From Pseudomonadota bacterium (GTDB lineage: Bacteria > Pseudomonadota > Alphaproteobacteria > Micavibrionales > UBA2020), in NCBI GenBank assembly GCA_021805245.1, contig JAJZFS010000064.1, positions 1 through 37,635 on the forward strand: DNA of 37,635 nt, read 5' to 3'. Shown piece after piece: positions 7,883 to 37,635 of this stretch; position 1 is the stretch's first letter, and the number at the start of each line of letters is the position of its first letter. Under the pieces are notes generated by a model. It was given only the letters and a program-made list of their open reading frames with translations. It made no database searches and was not told the origin of the DNA. The translations under genes were made by a program, and so were the position numbers.

Positions 7883-8143
7883 ATGACCGTTGTCCACTCT
7901 TTTGAACATGCCGTGACGCATACGGAACTTTCGGACCTTCTGGCGGAAACGTTCGAAGACGTGTACGGGGATATACACGACATCGGCGCCACCTCTACGG
8001 AGGTCCTGCAAGCCAGGGCCTGCGTGGAAGACATCGGGCATGTCGGCCTCGCGCCGGAGAAAAGCCTGAACCGGCGCGCCTTCCGCGTCTATGAAATTTT
8101 GCAGGACGAGTTCGAGCGCCGGAACACTTACGAAGCCGGCTGA
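7883..8143 (+). CDS. small acidic hypothetical protein
   Basis: 86 residues, starting at ATG 7883 behind a strong GAGGAGGGG ribosome site. It is predicted to be soluble and helical, rich in Glu and Asp, with no signal peptide, membrane segment or known motif. The C-terminal part (RRAFRVYEILQDEFERR) is probably an amphipathic helix. It converges on korB with only 10 bases between the stop codons and no terminator between them. Family not recognised; the clean start and the coding-like composition support a real gene. Confidence 0.65.
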   Translation: MTVVHSFEHAVTHTELSDLLAETFEDVYGDIHDIGATSTEVLQARACVEDIGHVGLAPEKSLNRRAFRVYEILQDEFERRNTYEAG

Positions 8144-8153
8144 AGAAGCCAAT

Positions 8154-9194: not shown

Positions 9195-9206
9195 GGTTTT
9201 CTCCCT

Positions 9207-14661: not shown

Positions 14662-14690
14662 TTGACATTATTCATAATATTAGCTATCCT
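14662..14690 (+). promoter_or_regulatory. sigma70-like promoter of the prolyl oligopeptidase gene
   Basis: Perfect -35 TTGACA (14662-14667), a 17-bp spacer and -10 TATCCT (14685-14690, four of six), 43 bases before the ATG. The surrounding intergenic DNA is AT-rich. Confidence 0.6.
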
Positions 14691-14733
14691 TAATGCTAGC
14701 CGCCGATCTTGATCCGCCTCTTGAGGGACGTTC

Positions 14734-17022
14734 ATGAAAAAAGCAGACCAATCTTCGCTCCGCGCCGCCCTTTCCAAGTCTTTCGTCATTCTCGATCCGG
14801 ACGTGCCGCTCAATCTGCAGAATATCAATGTCAAAAATCTTGGCATCTCCAAGGAGCGGCTGGCGCGCGCGCTGAACCCGCCCTATGCGCCCAAGGGCAT
14901 GGTGATGCACGACGTCTTCGTCAAATCGCCCTTCGCGCCGCTGGAAAGACTGGACGCGCCGGAAACGGCCGCCTGGGTGGACAGGCAAACGCAAAGATTC
15001 AAGGATTACCTCGCGGGCGCCGCCGCCGCAGAAGCGGCGACCAAAGCCAAGCTCACGGCGGCCATGAAATACGATTTCCACACGCTGCCGCGCTGCCATG
15101 GTGGCAGCTATTTCCGCCTGTTTCAGGCGCCGGACGAACTGCAGGCGCATATCGAAATGTCGGGGAGCGAAAACGGCCCGTGGAAGACGATCGTCGACCC
15201 CAACAAGATGAATGAAGAAGGGATCGTCTCCATATCGGACTGGGTGGTCAGTCCAAACGGCAAGCGCGTCGCCTATTTTCTCTCCAAGGCGGGCAGCGAC
15301 GTCACGGCGCTGCATGTGTTCAATGTCGAAAGCGGACAGGACATGCCGGAAGTCCTGACCGCCAGCACCATGACGGCCGCCTTGCAGAACAAGGTGCCTA
15401 CCGTTTTGTGGGACAAGGACAGCCATGACGGCTTTCTTTACAGCGACAACAGGTTCGGCGTCGTGCGGCATCACACCGTCGGCGCGGCCGCCGACGACGA
15501 CTATAATGTTTTCGCCGCCCGTCCCACGGCCTATGCGCGCCCGCAGCGGCTCGCCGCCGGCAAATACGAATGGATGTACGAGGGGGCGGGCACGGACAGA
15601 AACACGGGTCTGTCCTACCGCCCCTTCGGCAGCGGCGGCGCCTTCACGGAAATCGTCGCGCCGCAGGTCTACGCCCTGCATCCGGTCGCGGAGCTGGAAG
15701 ACGGCAGCGTGCTCGCCATCACCAACAAGGACGCGCCGCGCAGCAAGCTGGTCTCTTTCCGCCCCGGCGATCCGGCGCCGGAAAAATGGCGGACGGTCGT
15801 CCCCGAGAGCGACACGGACGTTTTGAAGAGCGTCACCTTGCATACAGGCAAGCTGGTCGCCACCTATACGCATGACGCGGCGGACGCGGTGAAAGTCTTC
15901 ACCGAAGACGGCAAACACCTGCACGACATGCCTCTGCCGGTGCAAAGCCTTGCCGTTTTCGGGCAGGGCGAGAGGCCGGACGGCAAGCTCGGCCTGAAAA
16001 TCTGCGGCTTCAAGAGCATGGGCGACTTTTATACCTACGACCCCGCCACCAACGATCTGGCTTTCGACAAAAAAGGCCCGGGAAAAGTAAACCTCGACGA
16101 CTGCATCGTCGAGCGCCTTTACGCGACGTCGAAGGACGGCACCCGGGTGCCGATGACGGTGATCCGCCGCCCCGATACCGTTCTTGACGGCACGGCCGCG
16201 GTGAAACTGACGGGCTATGGCGGGTTCAACATTTCGCGCGGCCCGCGTTTTGACGAGGCGATGTGGAACTTCGTCAACTCCGGCGGCATTTACGTGCAGA
16301 CGAATTTGCGCGGCGGCGGCGAGTTCGGGCAGGCGTGGTACGATCAGGGACGCCTGCTCAACAAGCAAAACGTCTTCGACGACTTCGCCGCCTGCGCTCA
16401 AAAGCTGATCGCGGACAAATACACGCAATCGAAAAGGCTGGTGATCGAGGGCGGCAGCAACGGCGGATTGCTGACCTCGGCGACGATGCTGCAGCATCCC
16501 AAGCTTTTCGGCGCGGTCGTGACCCATGTGCCGGTGACCGACATGCTGGGTCTGAGGGGGGCATGGGCGTCGGACTACGGCCGGCCGGACAAAATCAAGG
16601 AAGATTTCAATGCCGCGGCGCGCTATTCGCCGGTGCACAACGTGAAGAAGGGCGTGAAATATCCGCCCCACCTGATCATCACCGGCGATCACGACGACCG
16701 CGTCAATCCGTGGCATGCCTACAAGCTGGCCGCCGCCTTGCAGTCCCAGTCACATAAGGACAATATTACCCTGCTCAACGTCGAGAAAGACGCCGGCCAC
16801 GGCGCGGGAAAATCGACGGCGCAAATCATTCGGGAGGACGCCGAGGTCTTCGCCTTCATCGAAAAAGCCATCGGCCCCGTCAATCAGCAGGCTTATAAAG
16901 AAAAGCTGTCGCAAGACCAAAAAACCGACTTCAATGCGACCGGCAAGCGCAAGACGCTTCCCGCGCCGCCCGCCGCGACCGACCGCGCCGCGCATCGTCC
17001 GCAGTCTCCGCGCGCGCAATAG
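14734..17022 (+). CDS. prolyl oligopeptidase family serine peptidase (S9A)
   Basis: 762 residues. It cleaves short peptides after proline. A seven-bladed propeller domain (about 110-500) is followed by the alpha/beta-hydrolase domain with the S9 signature: Ser575 in GGSNGG, an Asp in the DHDDRV motif (652-657) and His689 in DAGHGAG. PYAPKG and the region up to YDFHTLPRCHGGSYFRLFQA match the family N-terminus. There are about 45 extra N-terminal residues and a Pro/Ala-rich C-terminal tail (about 735-762) beyond the usual 690-720. No signal peptide is visible, so it is likely cytoplasmic. GAGGG precedes the ATG. It converges on the DUF2207 gene. Confidence 0.92.
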   Translation: MKKADQSSLRAALSKSFVILDPDVPLNLQNINVKNLGISKERLARALNPPYAPKGMVMHDVFVKSPFAPLERLDAPETAAWVDRQTQRFKDYLAGAAAAEAATKAKLTAAMKYDFHTLPRCHGGSYFRLFQAPDELQAHIEMSGSENGPWKTIVDPNKMNEEGIVSISDWVVSPNGKRVAYFLSKAGSDVTALHVFNVESGQDMPEVLTASTMTAALQNKVPTVLWDKDSHDGFLYSDNRFGVVRHHTVGAAADDDYNVFAARPTAYARPQRLAAGKYEWMYEGAGTDRNTGLSYRPFGSGGAFTEIVAPQVYALHPVAELEDGSVLAITNKDAPRSKLVSFRPGDPAPEKWRTVVPESDTDVLKSVTLHTGKLVATYTHDAADAVKVFTEDGKHLHDMPLPVQSLAVFGQGERPDGKLGLKICGFKSMGDFYTYDPATNDLAFDKKGPGKVNLDDCIVERLYATSKDGTRVPMTVIRRPDTVLDGTAAVKLTGYGGFNISRGPRFDEAMWNFVNSGGIYVQTNLRGGGEFGQAWYDQGRLLNKQNVFDDFAACAQKLIADKYTQSKRLVIEGGSNGGLLTSATMLQHPKLFGAVVTHVPVTDMLGLRGAWASDYGRPDKIKEDFNAAARYSPVHNVKKGVKYPPHLIITGDHDDRVNPWHAYKLAAALQSQSHKDNITLLNVEKDAGHGAGKSTAQIIREDAEVFAFIEKAIGPVNQQAYKEKLSQDQKTDFNATGKRKTLPAPPAATDRAAHRPQSPRAQ

Positions 17023-22722: not shown

Positions 22723-25599
22723 TCAAAATCCTTTCTCCCATGCGGCGCTGATCGCCTCCAGGGGCAAAGATATATCGTTGAACGAAAGTTTTGCATCGTC
22801 CGTCACGGTACCGATCGCTTTCGCGCCGAAAATCTTCTCGAACGCTTCGCGCTTCGCCGCAGGCACGGAAACGACGAACCGGCCCGGCGCTTCGCTGAAG
22901 GCTGTTTCGGCATCCAGCGTGCCGGAAAGCTGCGCGCCGTTCCTGCCGCCGATCATGCTCTCGGAGAGCGCAACCATCATCCCGCCCTCCGATATGTCAT
23001 GCAGCGATGAAAAGAGCGGCAGGGCCGCGTGGATCTTGCGGTAAAGCGCGATGTTGCGCGCAAGGTCGATGGCGGGCGTTTTTGCGCAGGCATTATATAT
23101 ATGCGCGTATTCCGAGCCGCCCAATCCACTCCCTTTGCCGCCGAGCAGATAAATCAAATCACCCGCGGTGTTGAAATGGCTCGCGGGCACGCTGCCCATC
23201 TTCACCCGCGCCATTGCTGTCACCAGTAGCGTCGGCAGCACGCCGAAGGAAATATCGCGCCCGCCCTTGTCTTTGCCTTTGAAGTCGTTCTTCATGCTGT
23301 CTTTGCCGCTGACCAGCGGCATGCCGTAATTTATGCAGGCGTCGTGCAACCCCTGACAGGCGCGCACCAGTTGGCCGAGGCGGTATTCGCCGTCGGGATT
23401 TTTCGCGGATTGCACGGGGTCGGGCCAGCAGAAATTGTCGAGCAGGCAGCACATATCGGGGTCGCCGCCCGCGGCGACGACATTGCGCACCGCTTCATCG
23501 ACCGCGCATTGCGCCATCAGGTAGGGATCGTGCAAACTCAGGCGCGGCGCGAGACCGCAGCCGATCGTCACGCCGTTGTCCTCCGCACCGCCGTGCGGCT
23601 TCAGCCAGATCGCGCCGCCATCGGCAAACGGCTTCACGTGCGTCGCCGCCTGCACTTCGTGATCATAAGCGCGGACCCATTTTTCCTTCGAGGTGATGTT
23701 GGGCGATTGCAGCAGTTGCAGCAGCGCGGCGTCGAGGCCCTCGGCTTGGCGCGTGCGGGCTTGCAAATTTGTTTCCGCCGACCATGCGGCGCGTTCACGC
23801 CCGCCGTCCCATGCCGCTTTGAGCTTCATCTGCGGCAGGCTGTCGTGCAAAAAGTCGAGCGGCAGGCTGGCGACCGTTGCTTGATTATAAAGAACCTCGA
23901 GATTGCCGCTGGCGGTGAAGCAGCCGATGTCGGTGGCCGTCACGCCATGCCGCGCGGCGCGTTCCAGAAACGCCGCCGTGTGTTGGGGCGGCACGGCGAC
24001 GGTCATGCGCTCCTGGCTTTCGCTGACCATCAGTTCCCACGGCTTGAGGCCGGGATATTTGACGGGACACAGGGCGAGATCGATCAACGCGCCGTTGGTC
24101 ATCTGCGCCATTTCTCCGACGCTGGAGGAAAGCCCGCCCGCGCCGTTGTCGGTGATGGCGGAATAAAGCCCCAAGTCGCGCGTCTCGAGCAGAAAGTCCG
24201 TCATGCGTTTTTGGGTGAGCGGGTCGCCGATCTGCACCGCCGTGGCGGGCGCGTTCTCGTCGATCTCCATCGAGCTGAAGGTCGCGCCGTGAATGCCGTC
24301 GGCGCCGATCGCCCCGCCGACCATGAAGACGCGGTCGCCGACATGGGCCTGTTTTTCCGCCGCCTTGCGTCCGTCCGGCAAGGCGTGCGGCAACACGCCG
24401 ACCGTGCCGACGAAGACCAGCGGCTTGCCCGCGTAATCGCGGTCGAAGAAGAACGCGCCGTTGACGGTGGGGATGCCGCTTTTGTTGCCGCCGTCCTCGA
24501 CGCCCTTGTGCACGCCTTCGAGCATGCGGCGCGGGGATTTCACGCCCTGTGGCATGAATTCTTCTTCAGTGCGCGCCGGCATGTCGGGCGGCGCAAAGCA
24601 GAAAACGTCGGTATTGGCGATCGGCCGCGCACCGAGACCCGCGCCGAGGATGTCGCGGTTGACGCCGAGGATGCCGGTGAGCGCTCCGCCGTAAGGGTCG
24701 AGCGCGGAAGGGCTGTTGTGCGTTTCGACCTTGATGCAGAGGTCGATATGGTCGTCGAAACGCACGATGCCCGCGTTGTCGCTGAAGACGGAGACCAGCC
24801 AGTCGAGCTTGCGCGCCTTCTTCACCTCTTCGGTGGCGCGTTTCACGCAGGTTTTATAAAGGCTGTTGATTTTTTCGCCGTTATAGTCGATCTCGGCGCC
24901 GAAGATCTTGTGGCGGCAGTGTTCGCTCCAGCTTTGGGCGATGATTTCGAGTTCGACGTCGGTGAGGTCGGCTTTAAATGCGGCGCGGACGTGCTTCAGC
25001 TCGTCAACGGAGAGCGCGAGGCAGCGATCGCGGCTTAAGGCCTCGAGTCCGGCGTCCGCAAGGTCGAGGGAAATCGTTTCGGGTCTGGCTTTCGTCGTGC
25101 GCGCGGCTTCCGGCAGGGAGACGTTTTTAAATCTGTCATGCGCGTAAAAATCATTGGCGGGATAAACGTCCGCTTTCTGGATCAGGTCGTTGGCGAGCAG
25201 TTCCCTGGCCACCTTTTCCGCGCCGGATTTGTCGAGCGCGCCGAATAGAAAATAGAGCGACCCGCTGGCCACGCGCGCGGAGATGCCGGAAAGCGCGAGC
25301 GCCTCGGCGGCGGCGTGCCCGGGATTGTCGGTCACGCCTGCGCGAAACCCGACATCGACGACGAAGGCGGGCGCGCCGTGGGGAAACTTATATTCTTTAT
25401 TGTCGAAGTGCGCCTGCTGCAGCACGGGATCGGCGAAGACCGGCGCGAGATTTTCCGTTGTGCCAGCGGTGGTTTTGTATACTTTCACTTCCTCGATCGC
25501 CGCGAGCGGCACGCCCAGCGCGTCACGCGCCTCCGCCGCCCATTTTTCCAGACGCCTGTCGGGGATGGTGTTTTCGATTTCGATGCGGATGGCAGTCAT
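22723..25599 (-). CDS. purSL: FGAM synthase, fused PurS-PurL subunit
   Basis: 958 residues. Step 4: FGAR + glutamine-derived ammonia + ATP gives FGAM. Residues about 1-145 form a PurS-like region, apparently two PurS-type halves (IRIEIENTIPD...VYKTTAG and VVDVGFRAGVTDNPG...LYFLFG). The PurL synthase follows, with SEHCRHKIFGAEI (225 onward), KVETHNSPSAL.PYGGA.TG, and a second AIR-synthetase-like repeat with LVSGKDSMKND. The glutaminase domain of the long E. coli PurL is absent and is supplied by PurQ. ATG 25599 has AAAGGG eight bases upstream and overlaps the purN stop by four bases. Alphaproteobacteria normally have separate purS, purQ and purL. Confidence 0.93.
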   Translation of the reverse strand: MTAIRIEIENTIPDRRLEKWAAEARDALGVPLAAIEEVKVYKTTAGTTENLAPVFADPVLQQAHFDNKEYKFPHGAPAFVVDVGFRAGVTDNPGHAAAEALALSGISARVASGSLYFLFGALDKSGAEKVARELLANDLIQKADVYPANDFYAHDRFKNVSLPEAARTTKARPETISLDLADAGLEALSRDRCLALSVDELKHVRAAFKADLTDVELEIIAQSWSEHCRHKIFGAEIDYNGEKINSLYKTCVKRATEEVKKARKLDWLVSVFSDNAGIVRFDDHIDLCIKVETHNSPSALDPYGGALTGILGVNRDILGAGLGARPIANTDVFCFAPPDMPARTEEEFMPQGVKSPRRMLEGVHKGVEDGGNKSGIPTVNGAFFFDRDYAGKPLVFVGTVGVLPHALPDGRKAAEKQAHVGDRVFMVGGAIGADGIHGATFSSMEIDENAPATAVQIGDPLTQKRMTDFLLETRDLGLYSAITDNGAGGLSSSVGEMAQMTNGALIDLALCPVKYPGLKPWELMVSESQERMTVAVPPQHTAAFLERAARHGVTATDIGCFTASGNLEVLYNQATVASLPLDFLHDSLPQMKLKAAWDGGRERAAWSAETNLQARTRQAEGLDAALLQLLQSPNITSKEKWVRAYDHEVQAATHVKPFADGGAIWLKPHGGAEDNGVTIGCGLAPRLSLHDPYLMAQCAVDEAVRNVVAAGGDPDMCCLLDNFCWPDPVQSAKNPDGEYRLGQLVRACQGLHDACINYGMPLVSGKDSMKNDFKGKDKGGRDISFGVLPTLLVTAMARVKMGSVPASHFNTAGDLIYLLGGKGSGLGGSEYAHIYNACAKTPAIDLARNIALYRKIHAALPLFSSLHDISEGGMMVALSESMIGGRNGAQLSGTLDAETAFSEAPGRFVVSVPAAKREAFEKIFGAKAIGTVTDDAKLSFNDISLPLEAISAAWEKGF

Positions 25600-26198
25600 G
25601 CAGCGGCCCTTTGTACGAGGATGTCGATAAATTCGCGGTAGAGTTCGTATTCCAGTTCCATCCCGCGCGCGCGGAAGGTTTCCAGCGTGTCGTCTTTTTC
25701 GCGGGGGAAAGTCCTTTGCGCGATGATCGGGCCGGTGTCGATGCCGTCGTCGACGTAATGCAGCGTGACGCCGGAGACCGGCACGTTGGCGCGGAAGGCG
25801 TCGCCGTAGCCGTCCTTGCCGGGGAAGTGCGGCAGGAGCGATGGGTGGATGTTGACGATGCGGTCTTTGTAGGCGGCGACAAAGTCGGGGCTGAGAATCG
25901 CCATGAAGCCGGCAAGGAAAATCCACTCTATATGGTGTTCTTCAAGCGCGGCGATGATGGCGGCCTCCTGTCGGGCCTTGCTGCCGGTGCGCTCGATGAC
26001 CTTGCACGGCACGCCCAGTTTTTCCGCGCGGGCGATGACGGGCGCGCCCGCCTTGTTGCAGATGACCAGCGGGATGGAAATGCGCTCGGCGCGGGTTTGC
26101 GTGTGACGCAGAATGTTTTCGGCATTCGAGCCGCTGCCCGAGGCGAAGACGGCGGCGGTAATGATGTTTGTCGGAGGAATTTTTTTACTGTCCGCCAA
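25596..26198 (-). CDS. purN: phosphoribosylglycinamide formyltransferase
   Basis: 200 residues from TTG 26198. It transfers the formyl group from 10-formyl-tetrahydrofolate to GAR (step 3). AVFASGSGSNAENIL is the phosphate-binding start of the family, NIHPSLLP carries the catalytic Asn and His, and GVTLHYVDDGIDTGPII carries the catalytic Asp. The TTG has GGAGG seven bases upstream and gives the usual N-terminal length, so I prefer it to ATG 26249, which lies deeper inside purD. It overlaps purD by 14 bases and purSL by four. Confidence 0.93.
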   Translation of the reverse strand: MADSKKIPPTNIITAAVFASGSGSNAENILRHTQTRAERISIPLVICNKAGAPVIARAEKLGVPCKVIERTGSKARQEAAIIAALEEHHIEWIFLAGFMAILSPDFVAAYKDRIVNIHPSLLPHFPGKDGYGDAFRANVPVSGVTLHYVDDGIDTGPIIAQRTFPREKDDTLETFRARGMELEYELYREFIDILVQRAAA

Positions 26199-27456
26199 TA
26201 TCCCGCCTCCAGTGTGCGCCTTTGAAAGAGATGTTGTCGATCCGCGCATAAGCCTGTTTGCGCGCCGTTTCCAACGTCGCGCCGCGCGCCGTCACGCCGA
26301 GCACGCGCCCGCCGCTGTTGACGAAGCTGCCGTCTTTGGCCGCGATGCCCGCGAAGAACACCTGTGTGTTGTCGTTCGTGATGGGGTTAAGGATGATCGT
26401 TTCGCCGAGCTTCATGTTCTGCGAAGGATAGCCCGCCGAGGTCATGACGACATGCACGGTTGTTTCGTCGGCGATGTGCGGCGCGGAACAGTTCGAGAGA
26501 TCGCCCTTCGCGGCGGCAAGGAACAGCGGCACGAGGTCGCTTTCGATCAGCGGCAGCAGCGCCTGCGTTTCCGGATCGCCGAGGCGGACGTTGAACTCGA
26601 TCACGTTGACATCGTCGCCATCGACCATCAATCCCGCGAACAGGACCCCCTTGAACGGCGTGCCGCGCTTATTCATGCCGCGCAGGGTGGCGGCGAAAAT
26701 ATTCTCGCTGATAAAAGCGCGGGCGGCGGGTGAGGGCCAGTCTTGGGACGAAAACGCGCCCATGCCGCCGGTGTTGGGGCCCCGGTTGCCGTCGAAGACG
26801 CGCTTGTGGTCGCAGATATAGCCGAAGGGCAGAAAGCGCATCCCGTCGCACAAGGCGAAAGCGGAAACCTCGCGGCCGTGCAGCGTTTCCTCGAGCAACA
26901 CGCGCTCCGCCTTGACGGGGTGGCCCGCGTCGACCATGAAATCGTGCAGGGTCTGTTCGGCTTCCGCGCGGTCTTTTGTCACCACCACGCCTTTGCCGGC
27001 GGCGAGGCCGTCGGCCTTGATGACCACGCCTTTATTTTCGACGTCCCATGTTTTCAGCGCGGCGCGCGCGGCGGCGTAGCCGTTGCAGGTCACGGCGCGC
27101 GCGGTCGGGATGTCTTCCGCCTGCATGAATTCCTTGGAGAAGATTTTGGAAGATTCCAGTTGCGCCGCCGCGCGGCTGGCGCCGAGAACGGTGAAGCGCG
27201 CGGCTTCGAGGCGGTCGACAACGCCGTCCGCCATCGGCTTCTCCGGCCCGATGACGATAAGATCCGGCTTTAGTTCTTGCGCGATCTTGCCGATATCTCC
27301 CGAAACGCAAACGATGCGGCCGTCTTGTGTCGCCATGCCGGGGTTGCCGGGCAGGACATGGACTTTTTCGACCAGCGGAGACTGCGCCATCTTCCAGGCC
27401 AGCGCGTGCTCGCGCCCGCCGGAACCGAGAAGCAGGACTGTCAGCCGCTTGCTCAT
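26185..27456 (-). CDS. purD: phosphoribosylamine-glycine ligase (GAR synthetase)
   Basis: 423 residues, normal length. Step 2: phosphoribosylamine + glycine + ATP gives GAR. ATP-grasp enzyme: N-terminal LLLGSGGREHALAWK and VLPGNPGMA, then KADGLAAGKGVVV, the GGMGAFSS segment, and NVRLGDPETQALLP, which supplies the metal ligands. It overlaps purC by four bases (27453-27456) and purN by 14. No sign of decay. Confidence 0.97.
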   Translation of the reverse strand: MSKRLTVLLLGSGGREHALAWKMAQSPLVEKVHVLPGNPGMATQDGRIVCVSGDIGKIAQELKPDLIVIGPEKPMADGVVDRLEAARFTVLGASRAAAQLESSKIFSKEFMQAEDIPTARAVTCNGYAAARAALKTWDVENKGVVIKADGLAAGKGVVVTKDRAEAEQTLHDFMVDAGHPVKAERVLLEETLHGREVSAFALCDGMRFLPFGYICDHKRVFDGNRGPNTGGMGAFSSQDWPSPAARAFISENIFAATLRGMNKRGTPFKGVLFAGLMVDGDDVNVIEFNVRLGDPETQALLPLIESDLVPLFLAAAKGDLSNCSAPHIADETTVHVVMTSAGYPSQNMKLGETIILNPITNDNTQVFFAGIAAKDGSFVNSGGRVLGVTARGATLETARKQAYARIDNISFKGAHWRRDIGGQ

Positions 27457-28511
27457 GCCGCCGCCTTTTGCCGCAGGTCTTTTAAGGCCGCGCTTAAATC
27501 ATCGAGCGGCCAGGCGTCCTTATAAACCGTGGTGCCGAGATATTTTTGGGCGAGAGCCTCGGCGAGGCTCATGTAGATCATCTCCGCCTTTTCCTTGGCG
27601 TCGGCAGGCAGAGGCGCTGGCGTTTGTCCGAACTCTTCGCGGCAGATTTTCTTCCAGTCCTTTTCGCCGCGGACGTCGGCGATGATTTTGGCCTTTTCCA
27701 GCGCGTCGAGCCACGGCGTGCCCTTATAGTGGGCGCGCAGCATTTCCTTGGACAGGTGCGTGCCGTCCAGCGTCAGCCGCAGCTCGTCCGGGCCGATGGA
27801 GTCGACCAGCATAAAGCCGCGCGCGCCGTTTTCCTCCTCGGTGAAGGCGAACTCGAACTTGCCGTCCCACAAAGTGACGCCGATGCCGTCAAAGCAGTCT
27901 TTGAGGTGCGCCGCCGCGTCCGCGGCGAGTTTGAAAAGGTTTTGCAGTTCCGCTTCATTGAGCCCCGCGATGGCGGCGGCTTCGGCGCGGCCGATGTAGC
28001 GGTCCTTGTTTTCGAGCTTGGTGGAGCATTCGATGACAGGATGCGCGAACAGGTCACCGGTTTTGGGCGCGTGATCGAGGCCGATCTCCTTGCGGTAGGC
28101 GGCGCTGGCGGTGCGTTTTAAAAGCGAGCTGCCCTCCGGCACGCCGAAGCGGAAGATGACCTCCAGCGGCACGAGCGCGTTGGCGGGGCGTTTTTGATAG
28201 GCCGCATAATCCCACACCAGCTTGCCGTCCTTGTTCCCGCTTGCGGGCTTGAACACGTCCACCGGCTGCACGCACAGCAGGCGGCCCTCCGGTTTGCCGA
28301 GCAGATGATGCCTGACGCCTGTCTTGTCGAGATAATCGAAGAAGAACCACGCCAGAAACGCGAGGCATTCGCCCTTGTGCTCCAGAAGGTCGGGCATCTG
28401 GCCCCAGTCATAGATGGAATAACGGTCGGAATATTCGAAGATATAGGGCGCAACGCCTCTCTTGCCGCGCACGTCCTTGACCGATCCGCGATAAAGAATG
28501 TCAGGCAGCAT
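27453..28511 (-). CDS. purC: SAICAR synthetase
   Basis: 352 residues. It joins CAIR and aspartate to give SAICAR. Motifs: YRGSVKDVRG, EYSDRYSIYDWGQMPD, PLEVIFRFGVPEGSSL (the family's P-E-V-R-G-like segment), KFEFAF, LVDSIGPDELRL. It is longer than the usual 235-300 residues, with extra sequence after the DELR motif and at the C-terminus. GGAGAA precedes ATG 28511. The start lies 11 bases inside purE; a longer frame upstream only reads purE sequence. The pairing with purE next to it recalls the fused PAICS of animals, but here they are separate. Confidence 0.94.
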   Translation of the reverse strand: MLPDILYRGSVKDVRGKRGVAPYIFEYSDRYSIYDWGQMPDLLEHKGECLAFLAWFFFDYLDKTGVRHHLLGKPEGRLLCVQPVDVFKPASGNKDGKLVWDYAAYQKRPANALVPLEVIFRFGVPEGSSLLKRTASAAYRKEIGLDHAPKTGDLFAHPVIECSTKLENKDRYIGRAEAAAIAGLNEAELQNLFKLAADAAAHLKDCFDGIGVTLWDGKFEFAFTEEENGARGFMLVDSIGPDELRLTLDGTHLSKEMLRAHYKGTPWLDALEKAKIIADVRGEKDWKKICREEFGQTPAPLPADAKEKAEMIYMSLAEALAQKYLGTTVYKDAWPLDDLSAALKDLRQKAAA

Positions 28512-29244
28512 TGCGTTCTCCTTCCGATTTGCGGTGTTGTTGCAGGCGCGCCGCCGCGTGGACGGCGTTGCGCGTGTTGTTGGCGCCGACCCAGAGGCCG
28601 CCGCGCGCCGCCCAGTCGAGGACGGTGAGATAGTTTTTCGCGTCTGCGGCGTCTTCTGTTTTGAAGAACGGCACATGGAGGCCGTAAGCTGCGGGGCGGA
28701 TGTCTTCCGTCCTGGCGACGAGATAGACGTTAAATGCGGCCTTGTCCGGAGCGCCGGACGAGGCGACCGTCAGGCCTTTGTCCTTGGCGGCGGCGCGGGC
28801 TTTGTCGATGATCTCCGCGGCGTCGGCGCCGTCCGGAACGACGAAATGGACGATGGAGGTTGCTTTCGCCGCCTTCCACTGGCCGAGGAAGGTGACGATC
28901 GCGTCCGTCTTGTCCGGCCCGCAGGCGAGAACCGGCACGCCCGGGGGCATTTGCGCGATGGAGGCGAGGCTGTCCAGCCCGCCGAACTGCGAGTTGACCG
29001 GCACGCCGAACACCGGCAAAGGCGTGAGCGCGGCGACGACTCCCGGCAGCGCGGCGGCGAGGCCGGCGCCGGCGATGATCGCGTCGCCCTGCCAGTTTTT
29101 GATGCGCTCGTGCAAAAGGTCGATGTTGCGGTGCGCGGAGATGACCTGAAATTCAACGTTGTCGCAGACGGGCTTCAGGCTCTCGACCAGCGGTTGGGAG
29201 ACGTTATTGTCGGACGCGCTGCCGAAGACGACGAAAATTTTCAT
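28501..29244 (-). CDS. purE: AIR carboxylase / N5-CAIR mutase-like protein with a C-terminal extension
   Basis: 247 residues against 160-175 for ordinary PurE. The first about 150 residues are the PurE fold: VVFGSASDNN (GSxSD motif), ISAHRNIDLL with the catalytic His, AGAGLAAALPGVVAA, VFGVPVNSQFGGLDSLASIAQMPPGVPV. The glycine-rich loop differs from the E. coli GGAAHLPG form. The last about 95 residues are an extension that I do not recognise, with an Ala-rich helix and a PAAYGLHVPFF segment. No purK is near, so it may carboxylate AIR directly with CO2 (class II-like); that is inference. AGGAGG lies before ATG 29244, which overlaps purF by four bases. Confidence 0.85.
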   Translation of the reverse strand: MKIFVVFGSASDNNVSQPLVESLKPVCDNVEFQVISAHRNIDLLHERIKNWQGDAIIAGAGLAAALPGVVAALTPLPVFGVPVNSQFGGLDSLASIAQMPPGVPVLACGPDKTDAIVTFLGQWKAAKATSIVHFVVPDGADAAEIIDKARAAAKDKGLTVASSGAPDKAAFNVYLVARTEDIRPAAYGLHVPFFKTEDAADAKNYLTVLDWAARGGLWVGANNTRNAVHAAARLQQHRKSEGERNAA

Positions 29245-30785
29245 GGCTTTCCTCCTGCAAGGTGGCGTTGCGCCGAGAAGGCGGCGCTTTCTTCGATTTC
29301 CGTGGGGTATTTGCCGTCGAGGCAGGCCATGCACATGTCCTCAAGCCCGATGGCCTGACGCAGGTCTTCGGCGTCGAGATAGATCACTTTGTCCACGCCG
29401 AGCCAGCTGGCGATCTCGCCCGCGCTCTTGCCGTTGGCGAGGAGTTGGCCGGCGTTGGGAAAATCGATGCCGTAATAGCAGGCGTAGCGGTGCGGCGGGC
29501 AGGTGATGCCGATGGTGATGCTCTTCGCGCCGTAGCGTTTGAGCATGGCGACGATCTTCTTGGCGGTGGTGCCGCGCACGATGCTGTCGTCGACGAGGAA
29601 GATGTTCTTGCCTTCGATCTCGCTGCGGATCGGGCTGAGTTTCAGCTCCACCGCCTTCTCGCGCTTTTCCTGCGTGCCGAGGATGAAGCTGCGCTGCACG
29701 TAGCGGTTTTTGATCAGTCCCTCGCGGTAGGGCAGCTTCAGCGCGTCGGCGACGGAAATCGCCGCGGGGCGGCTGGTGTCGGGCACCGGCATGACGACGT
29801 CGGGCGCGATCTCGCCGCGCATGATGGCTTCGCGGGCGTGCATGCCCAATCTGCTGCCGAGGCCCAGCCGCGCGGCATAGACCGATTTGCCGCCCTGCGC
29901 GCCTTCCGCGCCGGAGAAATAGACCCACTCGAACATGCAGGGGGCGATTTTTTTCTCTTTGCGGACGACGGCGCTCATCAATGTGCCGTCTTTGGAGACG
30001 AACACCGCTTCGCCGGGTTCGACGTCGCGCAGGTAGTCGTAGCCGAGATAGGTGAGGGCGATGGTCTCCGAGGCGAAGCAATAGGTTTTCTGTCCGTCTT
30101 CGTCTGCGCGCACGCCGAGGACCAGCGGGCGCAGGCCCTTCGGGTCGCGGAAGGCGACGAGGCCTTCGTTGGCGATCAGCGAGACGACGGCGTAGCCGCC
30201 GACCATGGTGTCGAAGATTTGCCCGACGGCAGATTTGATGTTGCCGAAGGTGAAGGTCTGCTGATCGGGGATGCCGCCGGATTTCTCCGTGAGAAAGTGC
30301 GCGAAATAATGGATCAGCACTTCGAGGTCGTTATGGGTCAGCAGCTGGCGGCGGAACTCTTTGTTGAGCCTCTGCGCCAGCGAGAAGTAATTGAGGATAT
30401 TGCCGTTGTGCGCCATGGCGAGGCCGAAGGGGATGCCGGTCATCATCGGCTGGATGTCGTTGGCGCCGTCGGTGCCGATGGTGGCGTAGCGCGTATGGCC
30501 GATCGCCATGTAGCCGGAGAGCTTTTCAATGCGCGGCTGGTCAAACACTTGCGCGACGAGGCCGTGGTCTTTCTCGGCGGCGAACATATGCGTCGCGTTG
30601 TCGTAAGAGACGATGCCGGCGGCGTCCTGCCCGCGGTGCTGCAAAACAAGAAGCCCGCGGTAGCATTCTAGCGCGGGGGTGTTGATGGGCGGTGTTTTTA
30701 TGGTCGGTGTTTTCGCAGGTTGCGGGGCGGGCGGCATTCGAGTCTGGAAATCTTCCGGACCAATAATGCCTATGATGCCGCACAT
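29241..30785 (-). CDS. purF: amidophosphoribosyltransferase
   Basis: 514 residues. It makes phosphoribosylamine from PRPP and glutamine, the first committed step. Cys2 of MCGIIGIIG is the glutaminase nucleophile, so the start at 30785 is certain. A Pro/Thr-rich stretch at about 11-40 adds roughly 24 residues before LQHRGQDAAGI compared with the E. coli enzyme. The PRPP loop is FLVDDSIVRGTT. CACLDGKYP near the end is typical; I see no complete cysteine set for an iron-sulfur cluster. It is the first gene of the operon, with about 170 bases of leader without an obvious riboswitch fold. Confidence 0.96.
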   Translation of the reverse strand: MCGIIGIIGPEDFQTRMPPAPQPAKTPTIKTPPINTPALECYRGLLVLQHRGQDAAGIVSYDNATHMFAAEKDHGLVAQVFDQPRIEKLSGYMAIGHTRYATIGTDGANDIQPMMTGIPFGLAMAHNGNILNYFSLAQRLNKEFRRQLLTHNDLEVLIHYFAHFLTEKSGGIPDQQTFTFGNIKSAVGQIFDTMVGGYAVVSLIANEGLVAFRDPKGLRPLVLGVRADEDGQKTYCFASETIALTYLGYDYLRDVEPGEAVFVSKDGTLMSAVVRKEKKIAPCMFEWVYFSGAEGAQGGKSVYAARLGLGSRLGMHAREAIMRGEIAPDVVMPVPDTSRPAAISVADALKLPYREGLIKNRYVQRSFILGTQEKREKAVELKLSPIRSEIEGKNIFLVDDSIVRGTTAKKIVAMLKRYGAKSITIGITCPPHRYACYYGIDFPNAGQLLANGKSAGEIASWLGVDKVIYLDAEDLRQAIGLEDMCMACLDGKYPTEIEESAAFSAQRHLAGGKP

Positions 30786-30954
30786 AATGCAGACCCCGAT
30801 TCTTCCTTGAAAGGATGACACACGGTTACATAGGTTTGCCGGCACATTCAAACATTTTTTTTTGATTTCGCGCGCGCAGCGGCATCAAAGATAGAAAATG
30901 TCTTTTTTTTACAACAGACGATAATTCTCGGTCGGCCGGAGCAACCCATAATCC

Positions 30955-32654: not shown

Positions 32655-32683
32655 TTGACATAATAAAATTAGCGGTCAATAAT
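32655..32683 (+). promoter_or_regulatory. sigma70-like promoter of the BTLCP gene
   Basis: Perfect -35 TTGACA (32655-32660), a 17-bp spacer and -10 AATAAT (32678-32683, five of six). It excludes the ATG at 32682 as a start and supports ATG 32784. Confidence 0.65.
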
Positions 32684-32783
32684 GCTCTTCTTGTTAAGTA
32701 AAATAAAAACGATGGCAGCTAAAATGATGAATGAAAACAACGATCATTCGTCCGCAAAAGGACAGCAGGGAAAAAAGGCGCAC

Positions 32784-33665
32784 ATGAAAAAGCGCCTGAA
32801 GGGGACACTCTGCGCGGCGTTCGCGGCGGCGGGGTTCGCCTGCGACGGCTGCAGCACGATGAACGCTTTTGCGCACGGCGTCCCGAACAGGGATGCCCCC
32901 GCGGTGACCAGGCCTGCCCCGCAGGGCCTGTCGCGAAATCAGGACGCGCTGACTTTAATCAAGTCGAGACAGAAATCTTTCGCGCCGCGGAGCATCCATG
33001 CCTTCGGCGCGGTGGCCACGCCGCGCTACGTGAATTACACCAACTGGGACGATATGCTGCAGCATCAGAAGCGCGAGATGCAAGACCCGGCAAAGGTGCA
33101 GACGTACCGCACGTTTCTCGATGGCTTCAACGTCTATGCGCACGAGCCGCTGCGGCAAATGGCGCAGGACGTCAACGGCAAGGTTTTGAAGAACATCTCC
33201 TATTACTCGGGATTCCATTCCAAAAAATTTCCCGATACGGGCAATTACTGGGCACCGCCCATCCAGACTATTCTGGCGAAAAAAGGCGACTGCAAGGCTT
33301 ACGCCATTTTGCAATACGCCATCATGCGCCACCTCGGCGTGCCGGAAAACCGTCTGGCCGTCGCCATCGTCAACTCGTCGGGGAGGAGCGATGTCACGAA
33401 CCATGCCTTTTTGATGTTGAACGTGGCGCCGGCCGGCAAGCCGCAGGATTTCCTGGTGATGAACGACAACGGCCCCGTCCTGGACGCCAGCCTTTACACC
33501 CGCCCGAACGGCGCGAACAGCACATGGTTCTTGCCTTACGTCTTTTTCGACGCCATGAACCGGGACAACGTCTGGACGACGCCCCTGGAAAACAAGCTCC
33601 TCTCCCATCCGAAACCGGCCAAAAAACCCGTGCCGAAAATCCTCAAGGATATGCCGATCACGTGA
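32784..33665 (+). CDS. transglutaminase-like cysteine peptidase (BTLCP, DUF920)
   Basis: 293 residues from ATG 32784, which follows AAGG and gives a clean signal peptide: MKKRLKG, hydrophobic Ala-rich core, likely cleavage after AFA at about 30. An uncommon pair of cysteines (20 and 23) lies in the signal region; a lipoprotein site is possible but does not fit the consensus well. The catalytic triad of the family is visible: Cys170 in KKGDCKAYAIL, His207 in TNHAFLML and Asp234 in PVLDASLY. Family members are periplasmic proteins; in Pseudomonas LapG a related enzyme releases an adhesin. No adhesin or LapD is seen here, so the target is unknown. Confidence 0.85.
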   Translation: MKKRLKGTLCAAFAAAGFACDGCSTMNAFAHGVPNRDAPAVTRPAPQGLSRNQDALTLIKSRQKSFAPRSIHAFGAVATPRYVNYTNWDDMLQHQKREMQDPAKVQTYRTFLDGFNVYAHEPLRQMAQDVNGKVLKNISYYSGFHSKKFPDTGNYWAPPIQTILAKKGDCKAYAILQYAIMRHLGVPENRLAVAIVNSSGRSDVTNHAFLMLNVAPAGKPQDFLVMNDNGPVLDASLYTRPNGANSTWFLPYVFFDAMNRDNVWTTPLENKLLSHPKPAKKPVPKILKDMPIT

Positions 33666-33750: not shown

Positions 33751-34347
33751 ATGAAAAAGAAGCTCGACGTCGTTTCCGGAGGCAAGCCGTCACGCGCTGA
33801 GGCTGAACAGGCCGTGCGCACGCTGATCGAATATATCGGCGAAAATCCGGAGCGCGAGGGCGTGCGCGAAACGCCCAAGCGCGTCGTTCGGGCGTTCGAC
33901 GAATATTTCCAGGGCTACAGTCTGGATGCGGGCGAGATTCTCTCCAAGACCTTCAGCGAGGTCGGCGATTACGACGGGCCGGTGCTGGTGAAGAACATCG
34001 CGGTGGAATCGCGCTGCGAGCATCACCTCGCGCCCTTCATCGGTCATGCGCACATCGCCTACGTGCCGGACGGGCGCGTCGTCGGCCTCTCCAAACTGTC
34101 GCGGCTGGTCGGCGTGTACGCCAGCCGCATGCAGACGCAGGAGCGTCTCACCGCCGAGATCGCCGCCGCGCTCGAAAAACACCTCAAGCCCAAAGGCGTC
34201 GCGGTGATGATCGAGGCGGAGCATTTCTGCATGAAGCTGCGCGGCGTCGGTGAAGCCCACGCCGTGACCGTCACGACGCGCTTTGGCGGGCTCTACAAAA
34301 AAGACGCCGCCGAGCGCGAAGATTTTCTTAAAATGGTGCAGGCTTAA
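33751..34347 (+). CDS. folE: GTP cyclohydrolase I
   Basis: 198 residues. It converts GTP to dihydroneopterin triphosphate, the first step of folate synthesis. Cys89 and His92 (SRCEHHLAPF) and Cys160 (EHFCMKLRG) are the zinc ligands, and His91 is the catalytic partner. SKLSRLVGVYASRMQTQERLT is the conserved helix region. The start at ATG 33751 gives the usual N-terminus; AAGGA is 12 bases upstream, rather far. It overlaps the convergent hypothetical gene by four bases at the stop codons. Confidence 0.97.
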   Translation: MKKKLDVVSGGKPSRAEAEQAVRTLIEYIGENPEREGVRETPKRVVRAFDEYFQGYSLDAGEILSKTFSEVGDYDGPVLVKNIAVESRCEHHLAPFIGHAHIAYVPDGRVVGLSKLSRLVGVYASRMQTQERLTAEIAAALEKHLKPKGVAVMIEAEHFCMKLRGVGEAHAVTVTTRFGGLYKKDAAEREDFLKMVQA

Positions 34348-34871
34348 GGCTTCGGCGGCGGTGGTGGCGGCGGCGTAAACCCCAATAACGTCTCACGGTC
34401 TTTCGGCGGCGGAGGCGGGACGTTCGGCAGCGTGTCCGCGCCGTTGACGTCGGCGCCTTTGTCGATCAGCATTTTCACGATTTTTGCATCCGGCGTCGCT
34501 TCCGGTTTTCCGGCGGCGTTTTCCGGCGGTCTTTCGCCGCGCTCGGCGGCGGCCTTGCGGTTGAACAGGTCGCGCACGGTCTCCATCAGTACCAGACGGG
34601 GATCCTTGCCGTGCAGCGCGGCTTCTTTGGCGAGGATGCGGGCTTTGGCCGCGGCCTTCATTTCCGCTTTGGCGGCCTGGACGTCCTCGGCCTTTTTCTT
34701 GTCCCGTGCGGCGGTTTCGGCCGGATCTTCCGGTGCCAGACCCTGCAGCTTGTCGTGCATCTTGTGCCACTTGGACAGCCAGTCAGGCAGAGTCTTCTCC
34801 GGCTTGTCTTGCGCGGAGTCGCCCCTTTCCGATGATGTCTGGCGCTGCGGGTCCATATTGTTCATTCCCAT
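34344..34871 (-). CDS. hypothetical protein with Ala/Lys-rich helix, ankyrin-like piece and polyproline tail
   Basis: 175 residues if started at ATG 34871. There is no signal peptide. The middle (about 55-90) is a charged Ala/Lys-rich helix that may be coiled. KIVKMLIDKGADVNGAD (about 130-146) resembles the second half of an ankyrin repeat, and the end has two proline runs (PPPPP and PPPPPPP). The promoter (34884-34912) would give a leader of only a few bases for ATG 34871, so internal ATG 34856, with GGGAA upstream, may be used instead. It shares four bases with the folE stop. Function unknown. Confidence 0.65.
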   Translation of the reverse strand: MGMNNMDPQRQTSSERGDSAQDKPEKTLPDWLSKWHKMHDKLQGLAPEDPAETAARDKKKAEDVQAAKAEMKAAAKARILAKEAALHGKDPRLVLMETVRDLFNRKAAAERGERPPENAAGKPEATPDAKIVKMLIDKGADVNGADTLPNVPPPPPKDRETLLGFTPPPPPPPKP

Positions 34872-34989: not shown

Positions 34990-35748
34990 TTAGGGCATAA
35001 ATTGCTCTTTGATGATCCGTTCGGCGAGGTTCATATCGGGATCGAAGAGCAGGGAGATCTCGATGGCCTTGTCGCGCCAGATCTCGACGCTGTCGACGTC
35101 GCGCACTTCGGTGAAGTCGGCGACGGCGGCGACGGGGCGGTTTTGGGCATCGATGACCTCGAGGCGGATGCGCGAGGAGAGCGGCAACAGCGCGCCGCGC
35201 CAGCGGCGGGGGCGGAAGGGGCTGAGCGGGGTCAAGGCCATGATGCCCGCGCCGAGCGGGATGATCGGCCCGTGGGCGGCGAGGTTGTAGGCGGTCGAGC
35301 CCGCGGGCGTGGCGGCGATGATGCCGTCGCAGGTGAGTTCGTCGAGCCGCACCGTGCCGTCGACCTTGATGCGCAGCTTCGCCGTCTGGTGCGTTTCGCG
35401 CAGCAGCGAGACTTCGTTGATGGCGAGCGCGGCGTGGGTTTTCCCGTCGACGCTCTGCGCGCGCATGTGCAGCGGATTGATGCGCACGGTTTGCGCCCTG
35501 GCGAGACGCTCCACCAGGCCGTCCGCGCTGTATTCGTTGAGCAGAAAGCCGACCGAGCCGCGGTTCATGCCGAAGACGGGCTTTCTGTGGCGGATGCTGT
35601 CGTGCAGCGCGCGCAGCATCAGCCCGTCGCCGCCGCAGGCGACGATGACGTCGGCCTCTTCGAGCGGCGTGTCGCCGTGTTCCGCGGCGAGCGGGTCGCG
35701 TCCGGCTGTGGCCTTGGGCGTGTCGGCGGGATAAAAGTGAATTTTCAT
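34990..35748 (-). CDS. nadK: NAD kinase
   Basis: 252 residues. It phosphorylates NAD to NADP. GGDG (39-42) is the family ATP-binding motif, FGMNRGSVGFL the following segment, AINEVSLLR the NE/D motif, and TPAGSTAYNLAAHGPIIP the glycine-rich loop. The N-terminus is short, as in other alphaproteobacterial enzymes. The ribosome site is weak (AGAGAA). The gene begins 13 bases after thiD and is the last of the glmM-thiD-nadK series. Confidence 0.94.
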   Translation of the reverse strand: MKIHFYPADTPKATAGRDPLAAEHGDTPLEEADVIVACGGDGLMLRALHDSIRHRKPVFGMNRGSVGFLLNEYSADGLVERLARAQTVRINPLHMRAQSVDGKTHAALAINEVSLLRETHQTAKLRIKVDGTVRLDELTCDGIIAATPAGSTAYNLAAHGPIIPLGAGIMALTPLSPFRPRRWRGALLPLSSRIRLEVIDAQNRPVAAVADFTEVRDVDSVEIWRDKAIEISLLFDPDMNLAERIIKEQFMP

Positions 35749-35761
35749 GTTCTCTATAATG

Positions 35762-36631
35762 TCAGGCTTTCGCCGCTTTGGAAAGGGCGGCGTTTTCAAT
35801 CGCAAAGGCGTGATTGAGCGGTCTTGCGGCTGTGCCTTTGCTGCCAAAGGCATGATCCGCCGCACCGTGCAGGAAGTTGATGCCGCGCCCGACGGCGAAG
35901 GGCAGGTCCAGGCCCTGCGCGAGGCTGACGGCGACGGCGGAGGCGAGCGTCGAGCCGAGGCCGAGCGTGCGTTGGGGGTCGAGGGCGGGCAGTTCGTAGA
36001 CTTTTTCGCCGTTGTCCATCGCCAGCAGGTAGAGGGTTTTTTCGCCGCCGGCAAGCGCGACCGCGCCCGCTTTCAGCAGCACGGCTTCCGCGCCGAGCGT
36101 GCGCATCATGCCGGTGGCGTGGCGCATGTCGTTCTGGTCGCGGATCTTCATGCCGGTGAGCAGCTCCGCCTCGCGCAACGACGGGGTCAGCACGGCGGCG
36201 CGGATAAACAGGCGGCGCTTGAGCAGCGCGATCGATTCCTCGTCCATGATCTGCTCGCGCACCGACGCGCTGCCGCTGCGCACGATGATCGAAGGATCGA
36301 TGACGACGGGAATGTCCGCGTTGCGGTATTTGTCGAGGACGTTGGCGACGGCGTCGATGACGCCCGCGTTGACCAGCGTGCCGACCTTGACCGCGCCGCC
36401 TCCCTCCGCCATGCCGAGGCCGGCATCCTCGAGCACGACGCGCATCTGCTGTTCGACGAACCACGGCTCCAGCGTTTCGATATGCGCGATGCCTTTGGTG
36501 TTTTGCGCCGCGACGGCGGCGGTGGCGGTCATCGCGTAGCCGCCAAGCGCGAGAACGGTCTTGATGTCGGCCTGCAGGCCGCCTGCGCCGCTGGAATCGG
36601 ATTTGCCGATGGTCAGTACTTTTCCCGCCAT
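35762..36631 (-). CDS. thiD: ThiD-like phosphomethylpyrimidine kinase family protein with altered active site
   Basis: 289 residues. Ribokinase-like fold: LTIGKSDSSGAGGLQADIKT (6-25) corresponds to the pyrimidine-binding GTDPSGGAG region, AAQNTKGI (41-48) is well conserved, and VVIDPSII and AVLTPSLREAELLTG are the family's core strands. In known ThiD the anion-hole signature is THGTGCTLS with a catalytic Cys; here it is TLGLGSTLA (222-230), so His and Cys are replaced by Leu and Ser. The fold is clear, but HMP-P kinase activity is uncertain. It may act on another small alcohol such as pyridoxal. It lies 23 bases after glmM and no other thi gene is near. Confidence 0.82.
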   Translation of the reverse strand: MAGKVLTIGKSDSSGAGGLQADIKTVLALGGYAMTATAAVAAQNTKGIAHIETLEPWFVEQQMRVVLEDAGLGMAEGGGAVKVGTLVNAGVIDAVANVLDKYRNADIPVVIDPSIIVRSGSASVREQIMDEESIALLKRRLFIRAAVLTPSLREAELLTGMKIRDQNDMRHATGMMRTLGAEAVLLKAGAVALAGGEKTLYLLAMDNGEKVYELPALDPQRTLGLGSTLASAVAVSLAQGLDLPFAVGRGINFLHGAADHAFGSKGTAARPLNHAFAIENAALSKAAKA

Positions 36632-36654: not shown

Positions 36655-37635
36655 TCAGGCGCGCGCCGCCGCGCCCTGCGGGGTTTCGTGCGCCGTGCCG
36701 TCCTGCAATTCTACAAACGCGCGCAGCTCCTGCACAACCTCTTTGACGCGGTTTTCATCGTCGCCTTCGGCCATGATGCGGATGACGGGCTCGGTGCCGG
36801 ACTTGCGCACGAGAATGCGCCCCGCCGCGCCGATCTTGTCCTCCGCTCTGCGGATGGCGGCCTGCATCGGTCCGCTATCGAGCGCGAGCGGCGCTTTGGT
36901 CTTGACGCTGACCAGCAATTGCGGCACGGGGCTGAAAACGCGGCAGATCTCGCTGGTTTTCCCGCCTTCGGACTGGCAGACGACCGCGAGCACCTGCAGC
37001 GCGGCGATCAGCCCGTCGCCGGTGGTGGCGTAATCGCCGAGAATGATGTGGCCGGACTGCTCGCCGCCGACGTTATAGCCGTTGGCGCGCATGTGATCGA
37101 CGACGTAGCGGTCGCCGACCGGCATGCGCTTGAGATCGAGGCCGAGGCCGTCGAGAAATCTTTCGAAGCCGAGGTTGGACATTACGGTCGCGACCACGCC
37201 GCCGCCCTTGATCTGTCCGGACTTCTGCCACGATTGCGCGATGAGCGCCATGATCTGGTCGCCGTCGACGATCTCGCCTTTTTCGTCGGCGATGATCAGG
37301 CGGTCGGCATCGCCGTCGAGCGCGAGGCCGATGTCGGCGCCGTTTTCAATCACCGCCTGACGCATGCGCGCGGGCGCCGTCGCGCCGCAATCGCGGTTGA
37401 TGTTGGTGCCGTCCGGCGCGACGCCGACGGGCACGACCTCCGCGCCGAGTTCGTACAAGATGCGCGGCGCGACTTTATAGGCGGCGCCGTTGGCGCAGTC
37501 GACGACGATCTTGAGCCCTTCGAGGCGCAGGCCCTTGGGAAAAGTGTTCTTGACGAATTCGATGTAGCGGCCCTTTTCGTCGTCGAGACGCGCGGCGCGG
37601 CCGAGGTCGGCGGCGGGCACCAGCTTGTACGAACT
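36655..37635 (-). CDS. glmM: phosphoglucosamine mutase, C-terminal part (cut by window end)
   Basis: About 327 residues are present; the frame runs off the end of the window, so the first about 120 residues with the phosphorylated Ser are outside. It interconverts glucosamine-6-phosphate and glucosamine-1-phosphate for peptidoglycan and LPS. Visible: ALDGDADRLI (the metal-binding D-x-D-x-D loop), GGEQSGHIILGDYATTGDG (sugar-binding), and RKSGTEPVIRIM (phosphate-binding). The tail after residue VELQDG is short and Ala-rich. It is the first visible gene of the glmM-thiD-nadK cluster. Confidence 0.95.
   Translation of the reverse strand, partial: SSYKLVPAADLGRAARLDDEKGRYIEFVKNTFPKGLRLEGLKIVVDCANGAAYKVAPRILYELGAEVVPVGVAPDGTNINRDCGATAPARMRQAVIENGADIGLALDGDADRLIIADEKGEIVDGDQIMALIAQSWQKSGQIKGGGVVATVMSNLGFERFLDGLGLDLKRMPVGDRYVVDHMRANGYNVGGEQSGHIILGDYATTGDGLIAALQVLAVVCQSEGGKTSEICRVFSPVPQLLVSVKTKAPLALDSGPMQAAIRRAEDKIGAAGRILVRKSGTEPVIRIMAEGDDENRVKEVVQELRAFVELQDGTAHETPQGAAARA

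Follow-up and report, generated by a model that had tools for sequence, protein, structure and literature searches.

A glmM-linked ThiD Relative without the Active-site Cysteine in an Alphaproteobacterial Order

RESULTS

The thiD-like Gene and Its Neighbors

The window analyzed here is the whole 37,635-nucleotide stretch of contig JAJZFS010000064.1 (assembly GCA_021805245.1), from a bacterium of the order Micavibrionales. Close to its end, a thiD-like gene that we call thiD* lies between glmM and a NAD kinase gene (nadK). These genes and the motif changes within thiD* are as follows.

34990..35748, minus strand: NAD kinase gene, directly downstream of thiD*; likely start at MKIHFY, inside a longer ORF (34990-36054)
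35762..36631, minus strand: thiD*, an intact ORF of 289 amino acids plus stop
35951..35965, minus strand: LGLGS (residues 223-227), replacing HGTGC (H209-C213 of E. coli ThiD)
36062..36073, minus strand: KAGA (residues 187-190), replacing KGGH
36170..36187, minus strand: TPSLRE (residues 149-154), replacing TPNxxE; the Asn of NxxE is gone and the Glu retained
36602..36607, minus strand: GK (residues 9-10), replacing AG at the start of the substrate-side AGSDxSGGAG motif
36655..37635, minus strand: glmM (phosphoglucosamine mutase), directly upstream of thiD* and truncated by the contig end

Elsewhere in the window, a row of purine synthesis genes (PurL-, PurD-, SAICAR synthetase-, and PurF-like) spans 22723-30851. 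A transglutaminase-like cysteine peptidase gene of the BTLCP type lies at 32682-33665; it has two tandem tblastn matches beside folE in G002 and G005 and diverges fast, with 72% identity in a pair where glmM has 92%. The proline-rich ORF at 34344-34871 (175 amino acids) has no Pfam match, and its position is conserved in G002 and G005 and partly in G004. Two long ORFs at 8091-11066 (991 amino acids) and 14680-16716 (678 amino acids), without a Pfam match at E 1e-8, are overlapped by long ORFs on the opposite strand and are putative reading frames.

Fold of the Protein and Residues Kept and Changed

The thiD* protein scores 181 bits against PF08543 (cut-off 27), and its AlphaFold model, built on 35 sequences with a mean pLDDT of 90, is predicted to have a ribokinase fold. 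The solved structures that match the model best are the ThiD-type proteins 8g1h, 1ub0, 7r8y, and 1jxi, with the ThiD-like B6 kinases of B. subtilis and S. aureus close behind. The domain score and the nearest structures, which are ThiD/HMP-P kinases, bear out the first-pass annotation of the protein as ThiD-like, and it is a variant of a known family, not a new system. Its score with TIGR00097, the NCBIfam equivalog model for HMP-P kinase, is 182.5 bits, which is below the cut-off of 204.95.

The same annotation had read the active-site loop as GLGS in place of GTGC, preceded by Leu in place of His, and residues 221-229 (RTLGLGSTL) confirm this. A frame slip, chance, or an assembly or sequencing error at the motif is ruled out, because relatives in the window's genus have it too: the nearest of them (G005) also reads GLGS, and the others read GLGA, GAGA, or GAGC. 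The further claim that all other core motifs are intact proved wrong. Using 51 near-invariant positions defined on 39 ThiDs (17 from the order, 21 from named genomes, and that of E. coli), we found 19 to be changed in thiD* and 32 kept. In E. coli numbering, the changes include A10-G11 to GK, M80 to Thr, V107 to Ser, N139 of NxxE to Ser, G177 and H179 of KGGH both to Ala, D187 to Tyr, H209 and T211 both to Leu, and C213 to Ser, leaving LGLGS, KAGA, and SxxE where ThiD has HGTGC with its catalytic Cys, KGGH, and NxxE. D13, D23, Q44, K77, G79, D105, E142, K176, and both glycines of GxG (G210 and G212) are among the residues kept. Going by ThiD structures, we place several of the changed residues in the HMP pocket and the kept ones on the ATP-Mg side. 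The derived residues G177A, D187Y, and H209L are common to all seven members from the window's genus, six of which have also lost the Asn of NxxE.

Vitamin B1 and B6 Genes in the Genome of the Window

The genome to which the window belongs (G000) comprises 2.25 Mb in 115 contigs and is 97% complete; absences from it are likely rather than certain. The first-pass annotation had proposed looking for a second thiD, and no second full-length PF08543 protein was found in this 97%-complete genome, its two other, partial matches being HldE-like and NAD(P)H-hydrate dehydratase-like proteins. Neither ThiC nor TMP-TENI/ThiE, one or both of which would mark a thiamin pathway for the product of ThiD, had a match in G000, and no TPP riboswitch was found there under strict filters. 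Because none of the three was found, HMP-PP is without visible use in this genome, and thiamin salvage via ThiE was rejected for it on the same search for ThiE. A thiamin pyrophosphokinase (TPK)-like protein of G000 lies above the Pfam cut-off but below that of NCBIfam (59.4 versus 76.4 bits). This bacterium seems to have lost the remainder of the vitamin B1 pathway. For vitamin B6, PdxH is present and neither PdxJ nor PdxS was found in G000, the combination that marks B6 salvage. Nine of the ten sister-genus genomes (G008-G017) have PdxH as well, with PdxJ/PdxS and a full-length PF08543 kinase absent.

Two Sets of ThiD Genes in the Order

A search of 142 genomes of the order gave a match at E 1e-10 in 59. 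Five weak matches (G090, G104, G105, G106, and G129), which tblastn with the window protein missed, were left out; G106 and G129 score as PdxY, and G090, G104, and G105 resemble these two by sequence only. The 57 ThiD genes that remain consist of 34 canonical ones and 23 of the thiD* type, including that of the window. Among the canonical genes, 29 of 34 adjoin thiE and none adjoins glmM on the stretches read, HGTGC is found in all 33 that are readable (the gene of G077 is split), and ThiE is present in all 34 genomes. Among the thiD* genes, 20 of 23 adjoin glmM (the exceptions being G030, G039, and G026, the last on a short contig), 10 adjoin nadK, and none adjoins thiE. The Cys position of these 23 holds Ala (10), Thr (7), Ser (3), or Cys (3), and the His position (H209) holds His (11), Leu (7), Tyr (2), or one of three others; the His of KGGH is retained in none. 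The PdxY-type kinases of the order, found in three genomes scanned, have Asp in the loop (GSGD or GAGD).

ThiE is strong in seven of the 23 thiD* genomes, weak in G022 and G037, and without a match at E 0.001 in the other 14. A strict tie between loss of the Cys and loss of ThiE within the thiD* set was rejected, as three genes that keep the Cys are in genomes without ThiE and seven without it are in genomes with ThiE. Of the genomes with strong ThiE, G032, G073, and G078 also carry a canonical ThiD, and G001 has a fragment of one at a contig edge; the GC content and 4-mer profiles of the ThiC and ThiE contigs of G001 are compatible both with contamination and with its absence. In G131-G133 (thiD* loci L263, L266, and L267, with the ThiE of G132 in L272), ThiE is strong and the sole ThiD relative is a thiD* reading THGAGT, the Thr form. 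The ThiE gene of G132 lies beside a thiL-like gene, as judged by eye; in G029, another member of the genus of G131-G133, ThiC and ThiE are present without any ThiD relative. The presence of ThiE is no proof of a ThiD, since ten genomes in which ThiE is strong, G029 among them, contain none of the 57 ThiD genes.

Linkage to glmM and Trees

For comparison with named genomes, we used the best 80 of 587 homologous loci, which are 33-41% identical to the window protein and include no member of the window's genus. By the first-pass annotation, the same substitution in a proven ThiD would count against its reading. We found no such ThiD: the Cys is present in all of these best 80 of 587 (the His in 79), as it is in the 33 readable canonical genes of the order. 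The gene lies directly downstream of glmM in 12 of the best 80, with the Cys normal; seven of the 12 are from Pelagibacteraceae, one from Rhizobium, three from alphaproteobacteria, and one from a "Proteobacteria bacterium." Because Cys-bearing ThiD can be glmM-linked in named genomes too, the linkage looks old and ancestral, and the Cys looks ancestral with it. We found no paper on Cys-less ThiD or on glmM-thiD linkage in a literature search that took in few subscription journals.

In a quick tree of 62 rows, the 23 thiD* rows fall on one side of a branch with an SH-aLRT support of 95, at which two long rows meet. A more careful tree of 32 rows, made without the two long rows and without the motif columns, gives the thiD* group moderate support (86/82). 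The Cys state changes at least three times on this tree, or four times, counted by hand, if loss alone is allowed.

Presence and Selection

The gene is found in seven of the eight genomes of the window's genus, the eighth being 77% complete, and in none of 10 genomes from three sister genera, so that thiD* is dispensable in the family. All seven copies in the genus are open, with no stop, whereas under simulated neutral evolution 85-90% of runs acquired one or more stops at a dS of 0.16, and at least 98% did so from a dS of 0.41 upward. Six pairs from the genus gave dN/dS values for thiD* of 0.75, 0.51, 0.46, 0.41, 0.34, and 0.26, with bootstrap intervals below 1 in all but the nearest pair, G000/G005, whose value of 0.75 (0.48-1.22) is indistinguishable from neutrality; in that pair the neighboring genes give 0.20 (glmM), 0.28 (nadK), and 0.18 (folE). 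Over the same six pairs, glmM ranges from 0.15 to 0.42 and nadK from 0.18 to 0.28, and thiD* exceeds both in five, the G004/G002 pair being equal (glmM 0.42, thiD* 0.41). In the window's genus, thiD* is thus constrained over the longer term, less so than its neighbors, and the constraint may have lapsed recently in the G000/G005 branch. Three f3 pairs of Cys-less thiD* genes have pairwise values of 0.067-0.079, with 0.078-0.114 for their glmM, and canonical ThiD gives 0.029-0.207 in five pairs. The strong purifying selection on the three f3 members, which have Thr, shows that Cys-less thiD* is a genuine type of protein.

DISCUSSION

We tentatively favor the reading, though with less than even confidence, that thiD* represents a glmM-linked ThiD lineage uncoupled from thiamin, in which the ATP side has largely been kept and the acceptor side has changed. 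It would have been inherited vertically as the glmM-linked ThiD of its lineage (probably the Alphaproteobacteria), released from the phosphorylation of HMP and HMP-P for thiamin and surviving as a ribokinase-fold kinase that binds ATP-Mg (D105, E142, K176, and GxG are kept and N139 is lost). The acceptor pocket would be altered and the transfer site would have no thiol, and the acceptor may be another small alcohol or an already phosphorylated compound, for which a strong base is unnecessary. The first candidate is a B6 vitamer destined for the PdxH of G000. Most likely, the gene either has moved to a different function or is undergoing slow decay and, because constraint is relaxed in the window's genus, its function there is probably minor. 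Several observations count against the favored reading: a G000/G005 dN/dS that cannot be told from neutral, the lack of the gene in all 10 sister-genus genomes, the Thr form of G131-G133 that may still serve thiamin, the mismatch between Cys and ThiE within the thiD* set, the weakness of the B6 idea, and the moderate tree support for thiD* as one group. The first-pass annotation had suggested that the protein may phosphorylate a different substrate or be a regulatory relative; the evidence points roughly in that direction, but the change is wider than the Cys and His, and decay is a serious rival.

Indeed, decay is the strongest rival, and we regard it as possible, if doubtful: a ThiD left idle after the loss of ThiC and ThiE would be eroding slowly while held in place between glmM and nadK. 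The neutral-like value of the G000/G005 pair, the ratios above those of glmM and nadK in five of six genus pairs, the joint loss of several near-invariant residues (the Asn of NxxE in six of seven genus members), and the missing gene in the sister genera all argue for it. Against this, all seven genus copies remain open and five of six pairs lie below 1, when neutral drift gives stops in 85-99% of simulations; moreover, strong constraint acts on Cys-less genes of this type in the three f3 pairs measured, and G177A, D187Y, and H209L are common to every member from the genus. One form of the favored reading, itself unlikely in our estimate, makes thiD* a kinase of pyridoxal, pyridoxine, or pyridoxamine that feeds PdxH, as do the ThiD-like B6 kinases of Bacillus and Staphylococcus. 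Known ThiD-like B6 kinases retain the Cys, however, and the PdxY-type kinases of the order have Asp. In favor of a B6 role, G000 has PdxH with neither PdxJ nor PdxS and no other PF08543 kinase found, 13 of the 16 thiD* genomes in a 55-genome set are without both de novo routes, and ThiD matches the predicted fold only slightly better than do the B6 kinases of B. subtilis and S. aureus. Dual HMP/B6 kinases exist in this protein family, according to PMC7093009. Yet G024, G032, and G037 carry both thiD* and PdxS, four of the 16 thiD* genomes have no PdxH match, and a need for a B6 kinase is not shown, because nine of the 10 sister-genus genomes have PdxH with neither B6 synthesis nor a full-length PF08543 kinase. 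A tie between thiD* and missing B6 synthesis was likewise rejected, since many genomes without thiD* also lack B6 synthesis. A role in B6 salvage is therefore possible but weakly supported.

That thiD* is still a working ThiD, specialized for the step from HMP-P to HMP-PP and with no need of a thiol base, we consider improbable. On general chemical grounds, phosphoryl transfer onto a phosphate would not require a strong base, and G131-G133, with ThiE present and canonical ThiD absent, have only the strongly constrained Thr form, so thiD* may still be serving thiamin in those three genomes. The 10 genomes that combine strong ThiE with none of the 57 ThiD genes weaken this argument, and in G000, where neither ThiE nor ThiC was found, the product would have no visible use; an HMP-P-only kinase fits G131-G133, not the window. 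It is just as improbable that thiD* acts as a pseudokinase, controlling GlmM or NAD kinase through protein contact. The conserved linkage (glmM at 20 and nadK at 10 of 23 thiD* loci) would suit such a role, but the ATP-side Lys, Glu, Asp, and GxG are kept, and the linkage to glmM needs no functional cause because it is ancestral and found with Cys-bearing ThiD too.

Beyond the favored reading for the window, it is conceivable, although rather unlikely, that the glmM-linked ThiD branch as a whole is a distinct thiol-free kinase, whose transfer site has Thr or Ala and whose acceptor lies outside thiamin synthesis. If so, a vitamin- or sugar-type kinase has gone unrecognized under the annotation of ThiD throughout a bacterial order. 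With their high PF08543 scores, genes of the thiD* type could be taken for ThiD, and hence for a sign of thiamin or HMP use. If the f3 form is active, the thiol would be dispensable for some members of the family, and these proteins would offer natural variants with which to probe its role.

Among known systems, the PdxY/PdxK pyridoxal kinases (PRK05756, TIGR00687) have the ribokinase fold in common with thiD* but carry a catalytic Asp in GSGD or GAGD where thiD* has GLGS, and a classic PdxK/PdxY identity was rejected on a TIGR00687 score of 26.7 bits (cut-off 144.5) and the lack of a GxGD loop. The ThiD-like B6 kinases (B. subtilis PdxK, 2i5b; S. aureus pyridoxal kinase, 4c5j-n) are closer, being of the same family and predicted fold (TM ∼0.8), although thiD* is only 25-28% identical to them. 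These kinases, the CC type, use the Cys of GTGC, a position at which thiD* has Ser. The nearest system is ThiD itself, the bifunctional HMP/HMP-P kinase (TIGR00097, PF08543; 1jxh/1jxi, 1ub0, and 8g1h). Unlike ThiD, thiD* has Ser for Cys-213, Leu for His-209, KAGA for KGGH, SxxE for NxxE, Lys for Gly-11, and Thr for Met-80, scores below the equivalog cut-off, and has no thiamin pathway found around it; like ThiD, it has the length and the predicted fold (TM 0.79-0.83 by query length against 8g1h, 1ub0, and 1jxi), the ATP-side Lys, Glu, Asp, and GxG, and the substrate-side Asp-23 and Gln-44.
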